Source: Quinella sp. 1Q5
Lineage (GTDB): Bacteria > Bacillota > Negativicutes > Selenomonadales > Selenomonadaceae
Assembly (NCBI GenBank): GCA_014764605.1
Contig: JACXWG010000007.1
Coordinates: 1 to 44,987 of the forward strand
Reading direction: 5' to 3'
Length of the DNA stretch: 44,987 nt
Shown: positions 7,873 through 39,892 of the stretch, one piece after another
Layout of the letters: each line of letters starts with the position of its first letter
Position numbering within the stretch: the stretch's first letter is position 1
Position numbers and translations under genes: made by a program
Notes under the pieces: generated by a model
Databases searched by the model: none
What the model saw: only the letters and a program-made list of their open reading frames with translations
Told to the model about the DNA's origin: nothing

Positions 7873-7908
7873 CCAAAAAGAGAAAACCCCCGATTCAGAG
7901 GCCTTCTC
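7873..7908 (-). terminator. Riboswitch-controlled terminator ahead of thiW
   Basis: On the minus strand GAGAA...TTCTC with an inner CCTC/GGGG stem, then CTTTTT. It lies between the TPP aptamer and thiW, where an expression platform is expected. Confidence 0.75.
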
Positions 7909-7921
7909 GTCGCGTCAATCG

Positions 7922-8019
7922 TTTTTCCTACGTCGGCATTATCCGAATCAGGTTCGCGGGTCGAAGTGCTTAACTTCCTCTCAGCCTGTCCACAACTTAA
8001 CTTGTCTGCAAGCTCCCCG
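7922..8019 (-). promoter_or_regulatory. TPP (THI-box) riboswitch
   Basis: The minus strand carries the conserved aptamer pieces in order: GGGGAGC, GGCTGAGAGG, then ACCC, GAACCTGAT, GGATAATGCC and GTAGG. Thiamine pyrophosphate binding should favour the downstream terminator and shut off thiW-thiC. No clear promoter could be picked in the short gap (8020-8073) behind the RTX gene. Confidence 0.96.
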
Positions 8020-8073
8020 ATATTCAGTTGTCAATTCGTTGCTATTTTCTCCGCAAAAATATTTTGTCCTGCA

Positions 8074-11000
8074 CTATTTCTTAATGAGCTTAGAACTGCT
8101 GATTTTGTATGTGTCGTCGTTGATGTGGAAAGTTGTTGCGGTAAATTCTTTTAGCATGACGGAGCCGCCGCTGACGTTGAAAGTTATCGTGCCCTTTGCT
8201 TTGCTGTAAGAGGTCGTGAAAGCCAATCCGTCAAGGGTGAGCGTATCGTTTTTATCGAAGCCGAAGATAGTATCCTTGCCGTCGCCCTTAACATAGATGA
8301 ACTTGTCGAACCCCGCATCGCCCCAAAGCGTGTCATTGCCTTTGCCACCTTTAATGCAATCGTTGCCCGAACCGCCGAGGAGTTTATCATTGCCCGTGCC
8401 GCCAGAGAGCGTGTCCTTGCCGTCTCCACCGTTCAAGCTATCGTTACCGGAACCGCCGAGAATTTTATCATCGCCCGAACCGCCAGAGAGCGTGTCCTTA
8501 CCGTCTCCACCGTTCAAGCTATCGTTACCGGAACCGCCGAGAAGTTTATCATCGCCCGAACCGCTAGAGAGTGTGTCCTTGCCAGAGCCGCCTAATAAGC
8601 AATCGTTGCCAGAACCGCCGAGGATTTTATCATCGCCCGTGCCACCAGAAAGTGTGTCATTGCCAGAGCCGCCACTCAAGCTATCATTGCCAGAGCTACC
8701 GAGGATTTTATCATCGCCCGTGCCACCAGAAAGTGTGTCATTGCCAGAGCCACCGACGAGAGAATTTGCCAGTTTGTTGCCCGTGATTTTAATAGCGGTC
8801 GTCCGTGATGAGGCGTTAATGACTTCAACAGATGAATTAACAGTTACGAACGAAGGCATCGAATTCGTCAAGGTTAAGGTTGTCGACTTTTGCCCTTTAA
8901 TGTTGACCTTAGACAAGTTACCCGCGCCTTGTAACGTTATGTTGTTTTTGCCGATATTGACGATAACATCCTCATTGTTTTTAATCGAAGTGTAAGCACC
9001 ACCCGCGATGCTGAGTGTGCTCTTCGCGTTGAAACCTTCGATAAGGTCGTTGCCGTCTCCAAAGGCGTATTTGAATAGAACTTTATCGCCACAGTTTTTA
9101 ATAGTGTCGTTGCCAGTGCCGCCGAGAATTGTCGAGCTATTACCGTTATACTCGTCGCTATCTGAATCATAAAAAACATCCCAAGATTGATAATAGCGAT
9201 AGCCGTTGTAAATTAAATCATTGCCAGTGCCTCCGTCTAATACAGACTTTGAGCCGTGACTTGTAATCGTATCATTACCAGTGCCGCCCATTATTGAAAC
9301 GTTAGCTCCGCCGCGTTCGCTCTCCCAATAGCCGCCGTTAATCAGAAAATCTCTATTTGCGCCGCCGTCTATTGTTACGTTGGAGCCTCTGTTGTAAATT
9401 GAATCATTACCCGCGCCACTACTTATCGAAGTTTTACTTCCGTAGTTTGTGATTGTGTCATTTCCCGCGCCGCTGTCGACTTTTGCACCGCTTGCAACAG
9501 AGCTGATTAAAATGTAATCGTCGCCATCTTCGCCAAAGACGTTCATATTCTCGCCGTAAGCCGTAATGGTATCGTTGCCCGTGCCAGCCGAGATTGTTAC
9601 TCCTTTGCCGGAACCTGTTAAGAGTTCCGCATCGTCCGTGCCGACGATTGAAGAGCTGTCTTTCCAAGCATAACCTTTCGAGCTGTCGTAGGAATCTGAC
9701 GCTTGCTTCATGAGATAACGCCAGAACATATAGCCGACGGCGTAAACATTTGTATCACTGCTGAAAGTGTTGTTAAGATCGAGATATTGCGCCAGTAGCA
9801 TTGAATTTCTAGCAAGCTCCGTCATGTATCGAGTATTGCCCGCCGTGAGATCGGCCATACCTTCCGTCATGTAATTCGGCATGTACGACCAGATATTGAA
9901 TTTTCCTTGCAAGACGTGCGTAATTTCGTGTGGGAAGAGATAATCGCCCAAGCTATTGCCGTTCTTATCGCTTTCCTCAAAGTTTGTGAACGCCATATTG
10001 ACTTGCACGCCGCCGGAGCCGCCGAGTCCCCAAGCAAATGAATCCGAGTCTTCAAAGAAGGAGAGTGTCATCGATTTTCCTTCAAAACTGAAACCGAACG
10101 TTTCTTCAATGAGCTTTATCGCCTCTTCAGCCCACCATGAGTAAAAGCCTTGAACTACCAGCTGTTCCTTTTCTGAAAGCGTGTCTTTTTCTGGAACGGT
10201 AATTGTTAAACCGCGAATGGTAAAAGTCGTTGATTCAGGATAAATCGCGTCGCCACTCTGTGGGAACAGGTCAGATTGAGTTTTCATCGACAAACCGCCC
10301 GCGTCCCAACCGACAACTGCATTTCTGTCATCATTGCCCAAGATAATTCCGCAATAATCACGCAAAAAAGTATCTGCATTGTTCGCCGTACGACAATCGG
10401 CAACCATTTTGTCAATAACTTCCTGCAAGGTGTTAAATTGTGAGCAATTTTTAATCGCTTCATCTAGTTTTTCTTCAGTGTCGAGGATAGTATGCGCCAT
10501 AGAGTGAACGAAATTTTTAATGACTTGTTGTGGAGAATATCCGTTGCCGTAAATTTGAGTTGTCGTTTTGCCAGCAGAATCCGTAACGGTGATAGCGTGA
10601 TTGGTCATGTTCTTCAAGCGCAAAGAACCGTTGCCGATATGGAAAATCAAATCGCCGCCGTCGAAGGAATAACTATCAAGTTTACCCGCCGCTATCTCAA
10701 TTATGTCCTCGCCGCTGTAATTAGTTATGACATGATTGCCATTGACATATTTATAAGTCTGCACGGAACTATCGCCTGTCAAAGTGCTATTGCTTTCGCT
10801 CATGTTTATCGTAGCGATACCTCTAACAGTATTATTCCCGCTACCCGCGTCGATTGTCACGTTGTCGCCGTAGTTGTAAATGGTGTCATCTCCTTCTCCC
10901 GCAGTTATTGTCACTGAGTTGCCCTCGTTGTAAATGTAATCATTGCCTGTGCCCGTGTCGATTGTTACGTTATTTGCTCCTTCGTACGTTTGCGTTTCAG

Positions 11001-11763
11001 AATTCCAATAGCCGTAGTTGTGAATGTAATCGTTGCCTACGCCGGCGTCGATTGACACTGAGTTGCTATGGTTGTTGATTGAATCATTGCTTGCGCCAGC
11101 GTCTATTGTTACTGAGTCGCCGCTGTAATTGTTAATAGTGTCGTTGCCCGCTCCGCTACTTATCGAAGTTTTATTTCCGTAGTTGGTGATGGTGTCGTTG
11201 CCTGCACCCGTCGTGATTGTAGCTTTCTCAGGATTAATCGTATCGGTCGTTTGGGTGGTCGAATTGTACTTATAGTCGTAATCATTGTAGATGTAATTGT
11301 CGCCACCGCTCGTCGAAATTTTGACGGATTGCCCGCCGTTATTTTCAATGGAGTCATTGCCCGCGCCCGCGTCGATTATCACGTTGGAGCCACGATTTTT
11401 AATAGTGTCGTTGCCTGTACCACCTAAGATTGTCGAATGGTTTCCGTTATACTCGTCGCTATCTGAATCATAAAAAGCATCCCAAGGTTGATAGTAGCGG
11501 TAGCCGTTGTAAATTAAATCATTGCCAGTGCCTCCGTCTAACACAGACTTTGAGCCGTGACTTGTAATCGTATCATTGCCTTCGCCGCCCATGAGGGAAA
11601 CGTTAGCTCCGCCGCGTTCACTCTCCCAATAGCCGCCGTTAATCAGAAAATCTTTATCCGAGCCGCCGTCGATTGTCACGTTGGAGCCATAATTGGTAAT
11701 GGTATCCGCTTCGCTCGTTCCTGAAACAACGATATCGGGCACATTGTTACTAATCTCTGCCAT
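8074..11763 (-). CDS. RTX-like calcium-repeat protein with central gluzincin-type peptidase domain
   Basis: 1229 residues, no N-terminal signal peptide. Residues 1-320 are degenerate nonapeptide repeats (GGxGNDxIxN, often alternating with SxxxNYGSNVTID). Residues ~400-750 are non-repeat and contain HEITH (612-616) and a third likely zinc ligand Glu634 in TEGMAD, a gluzincin arrangement. Repeats resume at ~770, and ~980-1160 are near-perfect GGSGNDxLxGG RTX repeats that bind calcium. The tail (GKDTIFGFDKNDTL...ISSSKLIKK) resembles the C-terminal secretion region of type I substrates. It is likely exported by a type I system, but none is in the window. ATG 11763 has AGGTGA upstream. Single-gene unit; substrate unknown. 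Confidence 0.85.
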   Translation of the reverse strand: MAEISNNVPDIVVSGTSEADTITNYGSNVTIDGGSDKDFLINGGYWESERGGANVSLMGGEGNDTITSHGSKSVLDGGTGNDLIYNGYRYYQPWDAFYDSDSDEYNGNHSTILGGTGNDTIKNRGSNVIIDAGAGNDSIENNGGQSVKISTSGGDNYIYNDYDYKYNSTTQTTDTINPEKATITTGAGNDTITNYGNKTSISSGAGNDTINNYSGDSVTIDAGASNDSINNHSNSVSIDAGVGNDYIHNYGYWNSETQTYEGANNVTIDTGTGNDYIYNEGNSVTITAGEGDDTIYNYGDNVTIDAGSGNNTVRGIATINMSESNSTLTGDSSVQTYKYVNGNHVITNYSGEDIIEIAAGKLDSYSFDGGDLIFHIGNGSLRLKNMTNHAITVTDSAGKTTTQIYGNGYSPQQVIKNFVHSMAHTILDTEEKLDEAIKNCSQFNTLQEVIDKMVADCRTANNADTFLRDYCGIILGNDDRNAVVGWDAGGLSMKTQSDLFPQSGDAIYPESTTFTIRGLTITVPEKDTLSEKEQLVVQGFYSWWAEEAIKLIEETFGFSFEGKSMTLSFFEDSDSFAWGLGGSGGVQVNMAFTNFEESDKNGNSLGDYLFPHEITHVLQGKFNIWSYMPNYMTEGMADLTAGNTRYMTELARNSMLLAQYLDLNNTFSSDTNVYAVGYMFWRYLMKQASDSYDSSKGYAWKDSSSIVGTDDAELLTGSGKGVTISAGTGNDTITAYGENMNVFGEDGDDYILISSVASGAKVDSGAGNDTITNYGSKTSISSGAGNDSIYNRGSNVTIDGGANRDFLINGGYWESERGGANVSIMGGTGNDTITSHGSKSVLDGGTGNDLIYNGYRYYQSWDVFYDSDSDEYNGNSSTILGGTGNDTIKNCGDKVLFKYAFGDGNDLIEGFNAKSTLSIAGGAYTSIKNNEDVIVNIGKNNITLQGAGNLSKVNIKGQKSTTLTLTNSMPSFVTVNSSVEVINASSRTTAIKITGNKLANSLVGGSGNDTLSGGTGDDKILGSSGNDSLSGGSGNDTLSGGTGDDKILGGSGNDCLLGGSGKDTLSSGSGDDKLLGGSGNDSLNGGDGKDTLSGGSGDDKILGGSGNDSLNGGDGKDTLSGGTGNDKLLGGSGNDCIKGGKGNDTLWGDAGFDKFIYVKGDGKDTIFGFDKNDTLTLDGLAFTTSYSKAKGTITFNVSGGSVMLKEFTATTFHINDDTYKISSSKLIKK
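9098..9390 (-). repeat. Internal long repeat of the RTX gene, copy 2
   Basis: About 293 bp nearly identical to 11399-11691 at a constant offset of 2301. It encodes the block with NGGYWESERGGANVS, GSKSVLDGGTGNDLIYNG and FYDSDSDEYNGN. It lies after the peptidase domain. Confidence 0.85.
11399..11691 (-). repeat. Internal long repeat of the RTX gene, copy 1
   Basis: N-terminal copy of the ~293 bp block at 9098-9390. Differences are scattered single bases, several of them silent or conservative, so the duplication is recent or kept alike by recombination. Confidence 0.85.
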
Positions 11764-13888: not shown

Positions 13889-14648
13889 AAACACTAAGCC
13901 CGAAGGCTCAAGACTCGTTGCGGAGCATGGGCTAAGCTTTCTGGTCGAGACTTCACAGACAAGATTTATCTTTGACTGCGGTCACACGGGCGCGGCGTTC
14001 GATAACGCTAAGATTTTGGGCGTCGACCTGCGCGGGATAAAGTTGGCTGTGCTAAGTCATTCGCATTACGACCACGCGAGCGGCTTCCCTAAACTTTTGG
14101 ACGCGGCACCGATTGAAACTCTTTACACTGGTGAAAACTTTTGGGAGCCGAAGTTCTCTTTGGATAGCTATCGCGGTTGCGGCTTCGACGAAAAGCTTTT
14201 GACGACTCGTGGCATTGAGCAAAGGACTTGCCGCGACATACTTGCCCTTGACGATACGGCGTGGCTTGTCGGGAACTTCAAGCGGCGTTATACCTTCGAG
14301 ACGATACCGAATAAGTTTCTACGCGGCGAAGATAAGACGCCTGACGACTTCAGCGACGAGATAGTTTTAGTCCTGCGCGAGGGCGACGGGCTAGCAGTCG
14401 TGACGGCTTGTGCGCACGTTGGCATTTTAAATATCGTTTCTGATGTCCGTGAACGATTTGCCCGCCCGATTGTCAGCGTGATTGGCGGCTTGCACTTGTC
14501 TGGCGCGACGCACGAACGGATTGCCCGAACGCTTGACGAGCTTAAGATTTTGGGCGTAAAAAAAATTCTGCCGTGTCATTGTTCAGGCGAAGAGCTCGTG
14601 AACAACTCAAACGACAGAATTTCTACTGGCTCGGTTATAAAGCTTTAA
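13863..14648 (+). CDS. Metallo-beta-lactamase-fold hydrolase, dihydropterin-synthase-like MBL subgroup
   Basis: 261 residues, from a TTG at 13863 overlapping the epimerase gene. Metal motif HSHYDHASG, then CAHVGILN, GGLHLSGA and a final CHCSGEE fit the MBL subgroup typified by the archaeal 7,8-dihydropterin-6-methyl-aminobenzene phosphate synthase and found widely in anaerobes with unknown roles. The start is uncertain, since no ATG lies nearby. The last 75 bases of the gene region (14571-14645) are present a second time at 14724-14798, so the 3' end has been duplicated around a small inserted element. Confidence 0.8.
   Translation: MARLTILIENTKPEGSRLVAEHGLSFLVETSQTRFIFDCGHTGAAFDNAKILGVDLRGIKLAVLSHSHYDHASGFPKLLDAAPIETLYTGENFWEPKFSLDSYRGCGFDEKLLTTRGIEQRTCRDILALDDTAWLVGNFKRRYTFETIPNKFLRGEDKTPDDFSDEIVLVLREGDGLAVVTACAHVGILNIVSDVRERFARPIVSVIGGLHLSGATHERIARTLDELKILGVKKILPCHCSGEELVNNSNDRISTGSVIKL
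14571..14645 (+). repeat. Direct repeat flanking element A, copy 1
   Basis: 75 bp forming the 3' end of the MBL gene; about six mismatches to 14724-14798. Confidence 0.92.
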
Positions 14649-14723
14649 CATCATGCGCGGCGAAGAACTCCGCTTGTTGAAAACTTCGCCGCGTTCGCTG
14701 TTTGGTTACTTTTCAAAAGTAAC
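14646..14723 (+). repeat. Small palindrome-ended element A
   Basis: 78 bp lying exactly between two direct copies of a 75-bp flank. It begins TAACATCATGCGCGGC and ends in the perfect palindrome GGTTACTTTT-C-AAAAGTAACC (14704-14724). It aligns along its length with 39227-39303: CATxATGCGCGGC at the start, CGCGTTxCGCTxTTT in the middle, and a TTTT/AAAA palindrome at the end. It has no coding capacity. It resembles a MITE- or REP-like unit, but I know no named family that fits. Confidence 0.75.
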
Positions 14724-14798
14724 CCGTGTCATTGTTCAAGCGAAGTGCTCGCGAACAACTCAAGCGACAGAATTTCTACTGGTTCGATTATAAAGCTT
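14724..14798 (+). repeat. Direct repeat flanking element A, copy 2
   Basis: Second copy of the MBL gene 3' end; it runs into the ribH stop codon (14797-14799). It still translates in frame like the MBL C-terminus but has no start. Confidence 0.92.
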
Positions 14799-18254: not shown

Positions 18255-18278
18255 GGCAATTCAAATCCGTTGCGTCAA

Positions 18279-18377
18279 ACTTTCTCGTCCGGACTGTAAC
18301 CGTCGGTCTCGGAATTGCACCGAGTCTGCCAAAGCTCGCGGACTTTTACCGCCGGTGGAGACTTTCACTCCGCCCTA
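18279..18377 (-). promoter_or_regulatory. FMN (RFN) riboswitch
   Basis: Canonical aptamer on the minus strand: AGGGCGGAGTGAAAGTC, then CACCGGCGGTAAA, CCGCGAGC, GCAGACTCGGTGCAATTCC, GACCGACGGTTACAGTCC and GGACGAGAAAG. Its 5' end overlaps the last codons and the TGA stop (18365-18367) of the ykgJ gene. Confidence 0.97.
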
Positions 18378-18670
18378 AGTTTTACGCGCCTAAAAATATC
18401 ACGATTGCCTTGCTCTGTCAAATTTTTTAATCTCTCGCACGCCTTATGGTTTAGCTTGTAGAAGTCCTCGCGGCTTATCTTATCCGTCAGATAGTCTTCG
18501 TAGTAAGCATCAATGTTGCAGAAAAGCGGACGTTCCTTGTAGATGTTGCAGAGGTTATTCGCAGTCAAATGTTTGCAAACGCCGTCGCCTCGATCAAGTT
18601 CCTCATCATAGAAGACCGACAGCCGAATATTTCTGCAGCACGCGCCGCACCTTTCACAGTCAAAGCTCAA
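18365..18670 (-). CDS. YkgJ-family cysteine-cluster protein
   Basis: 101 residues. Cysteines cluster as in the YkgJ/UPF0153 zinc- or iron-binding family: CERCGACCRN at the start, then VCKHL, LCNIYKERPLFC and a later C. This is the PF03692 pattern (CxxCGxCC...RPxxC). Function is unknown; Fe-S binding or oxidase-type roles have been suggested. It overlaps the upstream gene by 11 bases. Its 3' end carries the promoter and the first bases of the FMN riboswitch, so evolution of its last ~18 codons is doubly constrained. Confidence 0.85.
   Translation of the reverse strand: MSFDCERCGACCRNIRLSVFYDEELDRGDGVCKHLTANNLCNIYKERPLFCNIDAYYEDYLTDKISREDFYKLNHKACERLKNLTEQGNRDIFRRVKLRAE
18393..18421 (-). promoter_or_regulatory. 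SigA promoter for the FMN riboswitch, inside ykgJ
   Basis: Minus strand TTGACA (18421-18416), 17-base spacer, TATTTT (18398-18393) with TGA before it. It lies wholly inside the ykgJ coding region, and a transcript would start about 10 bases before the aptamer. Confidence 0.8.
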
Positions 18671-38024: not shown

Positions 38025-39158
38025 ATGAAGAAGGCTGTACACTTCGGCGCGGGCAATATCGGACGCGGCTTTATCGGACTGCTCTTAAGTCAAGCGGGCT
38101 ATCACGTGACGTTTGTTGACGTAGCGGCTCCTTTGGTCGACGATATTAACACGCTCGGCAAGTACAACGTGCAAATCTTCGGCGAGGCTGAAAAAACTCT
38201 CGTCGAGAACGTCAGCGCAATCAACAGCAACGAAAACCTCGACGCGCTCCTTGATGCAATCGTTGAGGCGGACATTGTCACGACGGCCATTGGCCCGAAT
38301 ATCTTAAAGTTCATCGCCCCGAACATCGCTAAGGGTCTTACCAAACGCGTTGCGACAAACAAGACGCCGCTTAACATCATCGCCTGCGAAAACATGGTCG
38401 GCGGCTCCACCGTGCTTAAAGGTTTCGTTTATCAAAACTTAGCGGACGACGTTAAGCCCGAAATCGATAAGCTAATTGGCTTCCCCGACGCGGCTGTTGA
38501 TAGAATCGTTCCCTTGCAGAAGAATTACGAAAAACTTTTGGTCAAGGTCGAACCGTACGCCGAATGGGATGTTGATTCAAATGGCGTCGTCGGTGAATTG
38601 CCGCCGATTAAAGGTATGACGCTCGTAGACAACCTCGGCGCGTACATTGAACGCAAACTCTTTACCGTCAACACGGGGCACGCCTCCATTGCTTACCTTG
38701 CGTATCAAAATGGCTTACCCGATATAAGCTCCGCCATGCGCGACGAAGACATTGTTGCCGCCGCTCGCGCCGTTTGGGCTGAGACTTCTGCCATGTTGAT
38801 TGATAAATACGGCTTCGACCCCATTGTCCATCAAAAGTACGTAATGACGACTGAGGAACGCTTTAAGAACACCGAAATCAGCGACGAAGTTACCCGCGTG
38901 GCACGTGGTCCAAAGCGCAAACTTTCCGCTGGCGACCGTCTAGTAAGTCCTGCAATTCAGCTCATCGAAAGCGGCAAAAAGCCCGTCGCATTGGCTAAGG
39001 TCATTGCCGCCGCTCTGAAGTTTGATTACGCCGAGGACAAAGAAGCCGTCGAGGTTCAAGACTTCATCAAGGCGAACGGTATCGACGCCGCGATAACTCA
39101 TTTCACGAGCGTAACGCCTTATTCCAAACTCTTCGCTCTCATCAAAGCCAACTTGTAA
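38025..39158 (+). CDS. mtlD: Mannitol-1-phosphate 5-dehydrogenase
   Basis: 377 residues. NAD-binding start HFGAGNIGRGFIGLLL, then the polyol dehydrogenase core (ACENMVGGST, FPDAAVDRIVPLQ, VEPYAEWDVD, FTVNTGHASIAYLAY). It oxidises mannitol 1-phosphate made by MtlA to fructose 6-phosphate, feeding glycolysis. RBS AGGAGGT. Last gene of the operon; a terminator starts 30 bases on. Confidence 0.97.
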   Translation: MKKAVHFGAGNIGRGFIGLLLSQAGYHVTFVDVAAPLVDDINTLGKYNVQIFGEAEKTLVENVSAINSNENLDALLDAIVEADIVTTAIGPNILKFIAPNIAKGLTKRVATNKTPLNIIACENMVGGSTVLKGFVYQNLADDVKPEIDKLIGFPDAAVDRIVPLQKNYEKLLVKVEPYAEWDVDSNGVVGELPPIKGMTLVDNLGAYIERKLFTVNTGHASIAYLAYQNGLPDISSAMRDEDIVAAARAVWAETSAMLIDKYGFDPIVHQKYVMTTEERFKNTEISDEVTRVARGPKRKLSAGDRLVSPAIQLIESGKKPVALAKVIAAALKFDYAEDKEAVEVQDFIKANGIDAAITHFTSVTPYSKLFALIKANL

Positions 39159-39187: not shown

Positions 39188-39220
39188 CCCGCCGCTCTTC
39201 GTGAGTGACGGGATTTTTTT
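39188..39220 (+). terminator. Terminator of mtl operon (flank copy 1 of element B)
   Basis: CCCG-CCGCTC / GAGTGA-CGGG hairpin with seven T. The whole 39-bp unit 39188-39226 recurs at 39304-39342. Confidence 0.85.
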
Positions 39221-39226
39221 AATCAT

Positions 39227-39303
39227 TACATTATGCGCGGCAACCAGTTTCGATTGTCGAAGACGTGAACGCGTTACGCTATTTGACAACTTTTTAAAAG
39301 TTG
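39227..39303 (+). repeat. Small palindrome-ended element B
   Basis: 77 bp between two direct copies of a 39-bp terminator unit. It starts TACATTATGCGCGGC and ends in CAACTTTT-T-AAAAGTTG (39287-39303). It aligns end to end with element A at 14646-14723, in the same layout. No coding capacity. Confidence 0.75.
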
Positions 39304-39336
39304 CCCGCCGCTCTTCGCGAGTGACGGGGATTTTTT
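39304..39336. terminator. Second copy of the terminator (flank copy 2 of element B)
   Basis: Same hairpin as 39188-39220 with three differences over the 39-bp unit (39304-39342). It also overlaps the stop codon (39335-39337) of the minus-strand gene, so it was probably the ancestral bidirectional terminator. Confidence 0.85.
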
Positions 39337-39838
39337 AATCATAGAGGAAAACGACCTTCAATGCCTTTAGAAATTTCGTCGCGTAGTTCTCAACCAAAAT
39401 CCGATTGGAATCTTCAAGCGATACGACAGGGTCGCTATTGAAATTTTTCAGAGCAATCGCCTTGACGATAAGAGGGTTTGTCCCTGCGCGGTCGACGGCT
39501 TCGGGGTCGTCAATGTAATCAACCATACCCATTTCGATAATTTTATCAATGTCAAGGTTCTTGTGTCCGTAAATCTTCGTGCCGTTGATATTCATAATGA
39601 CGGGAGACATTGCGGTTTTTAGCCCCAAGCCTCTGCAATCGACGATTAAGCCGGTATAGATGCCTTCAGCCATCTCCGCATAGTCCGATACCATTCTTTT
39701 CTTTGTCTGAACGGGCGTTGAAGATTCCGTATCAACCTGAACGTCGACATGCACGCTAGCCGAGGCGCATTCGCCACTTGCACCCGTCGCTAGGATAATC
39801 GCCGCCGCCACTGCTGGTAAAAGCTTCACTCCTTGCAA
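39335..39838 (-). CDS. Exported protein with LPP20-like-locus C-terminal module
   Basis: 167 residues from a TTG at 39838 (GGGGAG 8 bases upstream; a GTG at 39847 would leave no spacing). A signal peptide (LLPAVAAAIILATGASGECASA) is followed by a conserved-looking module: AEGIYTGLIVDCRGLGLKTAMSPVIMNINGTKIYGHKNLDIDKIIEMGMVDYI, then AGTNPLIVKAIAL. I recall such modules in Selenomonadales exported proteins near LPP20/FlgT-like genes; function is unknown. The stop codon lies inside the duplicated terminator unit. Confidence 0.65.
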   Translation of the reverse strand: MQGVKLLPAVAAAIILATGASGECASASVHVDVQVDTESSTPVQTKKRMVSDYAEMAEGIYTGLIVDCRGLGLKTAMSPVIMNINGTKIYGHKNLDIDKIIEMGMVDYIDDPEAVDRAGTNPLIVKAIALKNFNSDPVVSLEDSNRILVENYATKFLKALKVVFLYD

Positions 39839-39892
39839 ATTAACCACTCCCCTTTCCGACGACAGAATATCACTAGCTTATGAAAACTATAT

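Follow-up and report, generated by a model that had tools for sequence, protein, structure and literature searches.

The window (the whole stretch of DNA that was analysed, 44,987 nucleotides of contig JACXWG010000007.1 from Quinella sp. 1Q5) carries two short non-coding elements, each lying between two copies of its own flanking sequence. We centred our analysis on element B, which separates a mannitol dehydrogenase gene from a convergent ORF, and used element A, found elsewhere in the window, for comparison. The features at the two sites are as follows.

38025–39158, forward strand: gene upstream of element B, a mannitol dehydrogenase of the mtlD type (Pfam Mannitol_dh and Mannitol_dh_C)
39188–39226, forward strand: left 39-bp copy of the duplicated target, a hairpin of terminator type with its T run, downstream of mtlD
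39227–39303, forward strand: element B, 77 bp between the flank copies, a member of a dispersed family found in 33 of 66 genus genomes
39287–39303, forward strand: terminal palindrome CAACTTTTTAAAAGTTG, the hairpin end of element B
39304–39342, forward strand: right 39-bp copy of the duplicated target, overlapping the stop codon of the convergent ORF
39335–39847, reverse strand: convergent ORF of 170 aa, downstream of element B
14571–14645, forward strand: left 75-bp copy at element A, the end of a metallo-beta-lactamase-fold gene
14646–14723, forward strand: element A, 78 bp, of the same family as element B
14705–14723: end palindrome GTTACTTTTCAAAAGTAAC of element A
14724–14798, forward strand: right 75-bp copy at element A, ending at the ribH stop codon
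14797–15339, reverse strand: ribH, beside the right copy at element A

The two flank copies at element B were equal at 36 of 39 bases without gaps, and a longer alignment over 47 bp gave 87%. Both copies folded into a hairpin followed by a T run, the left at −14.8 kcal/mol (z −4.0, with 0 of 200 shuffles as good) and the right at −14.3 kcal/mol (z −1.9, equalled or bettered by 10 of 200 shuffles); a consensus terminator scan listed the right copy alone, which was at chance level (1 found versus 1.2 expected). An earlier, sequence-only reading of this DNA had described element B as a 77-bp stretch with a 39-bp terminator on either side, the second of which overlaps the stop codon of the next gene, and our coordinates, the folding of both copies and the position of the ORF at 39335–39847 on the reverse strand agreed with that description. 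This ORF had no match in Pfam, and DNA homologous to it follows the same upstream gene in two related genomes, G004 and G021.

Element A aligned with element B at 71% over 93 columns (E 7e-10), and its 75-bp flank copies were equal at 69 of 75 bases. The alignment between the two elements that the sequence-only reading had drawn was therefore sound, although the string that it gave as common to both is approximate: the motif ATGCGCGGC..CGCGTTNCGCT occurred once in the window, in element B (versus 0.00 in 100 shuffles), and element A reads CGCGTTCGCT, one base fewer, without the base written N in the element B motif. A third family copy lies elsewhere in the same genome (L004, on contig C125), without a flank duplication.

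Further copies were dispersed across the genus. The hairpin pattern GCTRTTTG-NNN-ACTTTTTAAAAGT, searched with up to 2 mismatches, gave 317 matches in 33 of the 66 genus genomes, compared with 20 for the reversed control pattern, and BLAST with element B gave matches in 37 of the 66 at E up to 0.1, weak ones included. Across 189 genomes from 30 genera of Selenomonadaceae, the hairpin pattern was confined to one genus, being absent from the 123 sampled genomes of the 29 others. An exact scan of a species-level collection matched 90 stretches; all 80 of those listed came from Selenomonadaceae or Selenomonadales assemblies, and the titles among these 80 that state a source name ruminants. Viral contigs yielded 0 exact matches to the element, and Rfam yielded no match at gathering scores at elements A and B and none at E up to 1 over the copies in L108, L114, L131 and L200. 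The claim that this is a real element is thus borne out by its dispersal, and the circumstance said to undermine it, independent tandem duplications with no element elsewhere, does not hold, as there is a further copy in the genome and there are many in the genus.

Within the family, we could locate a CGCGG-type 5′ start in 97 of 111 copies, and in 92 of these 97 the core measured 67–72 bp (the search window allowed about 57–80). In the core alignment, which has 90 rows (7 of the 97 cores were left out), the 5′ CGCGG is followed by a variable middle, CGCG, GCTGTTTG and the hairpin. The element as a whole is ~70–77 bp and non-coding, and of the 81 copies flanked by 1 kb in both directions, 73 lay outside any ORF of at least 120 aa. 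By eye, some copies had an additional module on the 5′ side, around CTAGCAATGCGC..GCGTTGCGTA, and others, L138, L196 and L216 among them, had no 5′ half yet kept the hairpin end. One locus (L340, G013:C123) held a head-to-tail array of four hairpins at 72-bp spacing.

Two side observations concern variants of this anatomy. Copies with the 5′ module often stop, by eye, right before an RBS-like GGAGG and a start codon (L073, L096, L108, L116, L120, L130 and L198). In L155, L202 and L304, a similar tail of the GCTGTT type leads into a second type of hairpin, whose arms are G/C (CGCTTTTAAAGCG) and which sometimes stands in tandem with the usual type.

We then considered whether the hairpin arms change together. 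The hairpin finder demands an intact inner ACTTT..AAAGT, which leaves the inner five pairs intact by construction, so only the outer two pairs count as evidence; the CGCG-CGCG pairing, which shows little variation, is no evidence by itself. Both outer pairs were Watson-Crick in 107 of 111 copies, through six arm combinations (TT/AA in 43, CA/TG in 39, CT/AG in 12, GC/GC in 6, CC/GG in 6 and CG/CG in 1), and non-Watson-Crick pairs made up 6 of 222, one of them T-G. The hairpin covariation score was 0.212 versus a shuffled mean of 0.062, and 85 hairpin cells had changed on both sides versus 28 in shuffles; none of 500 shuffles reached either value. On two of the five measures, the number of pairs altered in both arms and the number of further pair types, the copies did not surpass shuffles. 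This covariation check supported, for the outer arm pairs across the family, the compensatory change that had been read from the palindromes of A and B.

To count flank duplications we required that the sequence after the hairpin match that upstream of the element, from the hairpin onward, with a score of 30 or more. Among 147 copies with flanks, 27 were dropped for another hairpin nearby, leaving 120 isolated copies, which come from selected loci and are not a random sample. The flank was duplicated starting at the hairpin in 34 of the 120, compared with 9 of 3000 mismatched flank pairs, and site A contributes two of the 34, one in G000 and one in G025. The description of the flanks as direct copies of each other thus extends from A and B to the family. 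An unanchored match added a further 4 of 120 (versus 32 of 3000 control pairs), 82 of 120 had no flank match at score 30, and 86 of 120 were without detectable duplication. A looser-rule count of 20 of 49, from G013 and G001 only, was set aside, as was a separate list of 43 duplications, which holds artefacts (self-overlap in L159 and L200, tRNA genes in L123, and tandem arrays) and does not enter the main count.

The 34 strict duplications ranged from 17 to 133 bp in length (median 43), and 28 of them began at an offset of 0 or 1 base relative to the hairpin. On the 5′ side of the element, sequence past the point where the duplication seems to stop still resembled the target (z 7.9), so the strict lengths may be minima. 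The duplicated stretch was terminator-like (a G/C run, then at least five Ts) in 6 of 34. It began with C in 21 and had G second in 19, and it was preceded by G at −2 in 15 and by A at −1 in 14, which gives a weak junction consensus of GA|CG, an AT-to-GC step; these bases were counted with looser scoring that overextends the duplications (24–155 bp).

At three sites, relatives that lack the element carry the flank once. At site B the flank read out at the locus was single in G021 and G004 (in G021, two BLAST pieces overlapped by 38 bp, which is the flank present once), in a comparison that had a usable right anchor in 7 of 30 loci, G000 included. At site A it was single in G004, G021 and G057. 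The insertion at L146 in G013 is young, with 46 of 46 flank bases identical, and the same flank occurs once in G060, G061, G020 and G017, where it continues directly into the target. Such empty sites identify the direct copies as target duplications and show insertion with duplication rather than chance repeats. In G047 (L264), the mtlD terminator occurs twice with no element between.

Both sites of the window are also occupied in a second species, site A in G025 with the same 75-bp duplication (L305/L197) and site B in G006 (L260/L070). Over the variable core columns, the G025 copy ranked 79 of 89 in identity to A and the G006 copy 57 of 89 in identity to B, with the window's own copies and one from G004 taking places in the top four; when every column counted, and with it the invariant tail, the two ranked 23 and 24 of 89. 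They apparently belong to other subfamilies, and the shared occupancy suggests either target hot spots or an insertion of long standing that underwent losses and gene conversion. By eye, the single flank copy at site A in G004 and G021 is closer to the right copy of G000 than to the left, so loss of the element by recombination between the flank copies is possible at this site.

Taken together, these findings identify the family as mobile and non-autonomous, with target duplications that are long and of variable length. We give an even chance to the full reading of element B that we favour, in which this family member inserted into a terminator and left the 39-bp duplication, likely through target-primed copying at staggered nicks, with the hairpin as the likely recognition signal. 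The first nick would fall where the hairpin end joins the target, at the weak GA|CG, AT-to-GC step, and the element would be copied from its hairpin end; a second nick in the other strand, tens of bases away, followed by gap filling, would then produce the duplication. Target-primed copying is favoured because the family combines one precise end with long variable duplications and partial copies. For LINE-1, passages of PMC4982230 describe target-primed copying with bottom-strand nicking, variable-length duplications and 5′ truncation. Against such copying, a random second nick would not predict that sites A and B are reused in G025 and G006, and the 86 of 120 copies without detectable duplication, head-to-tail arrays such as L340, the element-free double terminator of G047 and the two covariation measures at shuffle level also count against it.

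A profile search for reverse transcriptases (RVT_1) found them in 3 of the 16 genomes with at least five copies versus 18 of the 50 others (p 0.23), a further point against target-primed copying; the genus genomes are drafts, 59–100% complete, in which missing genes are weak evidence, although two copy-rich genomes without RVT_1 are 94% and 98% complete. Because RVT_1 is sparse in copy-rich genomes and G-T pairs are rare in the hairpin, the template may be DNA. A larger autonomous relative within the same duplication was sought in the sequence upstream (up to about 8 kb) of copies without a nearby duplication, and we took no candidate for a gene-bearing one: four rows scored at least 34, three of them within 120 bp and the fourth (L145) 562 bp upstream, with a start displaced by 9 bases from the junction.

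An element moved as DNA only strikes us as rather unlikely, though it is the rival that fares best. Here a hairpin-recognising enzyme of the single-strand or rolling-circle type would cut at the hairpin foot and join the end to a nicked target, with replication or repair making the duplication. The single G-T pair among 222 outer hairpin pairs is as expected of a hairpin acting as DNA, and the L340 array in G013, with its four hairpins 72 bp apart, also speaks for this route. So do REP sequences, which, in the portions of PMC2817692 that describe them with their RAYT partners, are likewise small, dispersed and mostly intergenic, with palindrome arms that keep their complementarity. The same portions make REPs dependent on Y1 transposases, whereas among the copy-rich genomes here 1 of 16 had Y1_Tnp (PF01797), in the form of a 53-aa open frame, versus 6 of 50 others. 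Y2_Tnp was above its cut-off in 0 of 66 genomes, and its model also matched none of 14 control genomes. None of RVT_1, Y1_Tnp and Y2_Tnp tracked copy number in these draft genomes, and we rejected all three as partner enzymes. IS200/IS605 elements, moreover, make no larger target duplications according to those portions of PMC2817692, in contrast to the 17–133 bp seen here, and the REP head described there, GT(A/G)G before the palindrome, is replaced in this family by GCTGTTTG before the hairpin.

Template switching during replication, in which a growing strand jumps to another copy, copies as far as the hairpin and falls back upstream, would account for the fuzzy 5′ side with its target resemblance past the duplication end (z 7.9) and for the tandem tails with differing hairpin arms in L124, L155 and L202. 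We nevertheless consider it improbable, as the 5′ flank at L146 had no convincing donor in G013, G060, G005 or G001 (the best match was 24 bases at 92% in G013, E 0.006) and the core is nearly constant at 67–72 bp in 92 of 97 copies, within a search window of about 57–80.

Highly improbable, in our estimate, is a Cas1-like or other integrase that attacks in a staggered manner at both ends, with gap filling as in casposons. Passages of PMC9939771 report that casposase gives 15-bp duplications and prefers single-stranded DNA, and that casposons can stand in tandem with only the duplication between them; a like arrangement, with the duplicated flank between neighbouring copies, occurs here (L101, L103, L108 and L341). 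Casposons as described in those passages carry genes and terminal inverted repeats, however, unlike the family copies, and the spacing made by casposase is believed to follow from its dimer, whereas lengths here run from 17 to 133 bp. Independent tandem duplications without any mobile element are hardly credible, since, despite the doubled mtlD terminator without an element in G047, the same ~70-bp core sits at many unrelated sites between unrelated flanks and the element-free sites lack core and second flank together, so that dispersed family and empty sites contradict this explanation.

MITEs make target duplications of short, fixed length, and the long, variable duplications of this family set it apart from them. 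The likeness, taken from portions of PMC10969869, is that MITEs are short, non-coding and non-autonomous with flanking direct target repeats (seen here in 34 of 120 isolated copies), but they have terminal inverted repeats at both ends; our family has its hairpin at the 3′ end only, and the 5′ CGCGG and 3′ palindrome of its cores are unrelated. With SINEs and LINE-1, as treated in passages of PMC4982230, it shares one precise end, variable duplications and some 5′-incomplete copies; it differs in being a bacterial family without a poly(A) tail and without a partner gene that we could find, RVT_1 being lacking in 13 of 16 copy-rich genomes. We offer only as a tentative possibility that it is a bacterial counterpart of SINEs, a ~70-nt hairpin element spread by target-primed copying through an enzyme outside both the recognisable reverse transcriptases and the Y1 and Y2 transposases. 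Searches of open-licence literature on long or variable bacterial duplications, bacterial SINEs, template-switch repeats and Selenomonadaceae repeats turned up no description that fits.

Long variable duplications suggest that the two nicks lie tens of bases from each other, which is characteristic of eukaryotic target-primed retrotransposition. If target-primed copying of this family were confirmed, the mobilising enzyme would be of a new kind in bacteria and the mode of jumping new for bacteria. Its insertions also reshape gene borders, duplicating a terminator at site B and elsewhere gene ends or an RBS with its start codon (L198).

The window holds three other features of note. An FMN riboswitch (18273–18386, reverse strand) and a TPP riboswitch (7908–8029, reverse strand) both scored above the Rfam gathering scores, and the ORF at 8074–11763 on the reverse strand (1229 aa) is built of repeats, with 81-nt tandem units at 8231–8755 and degenerate units beyond.
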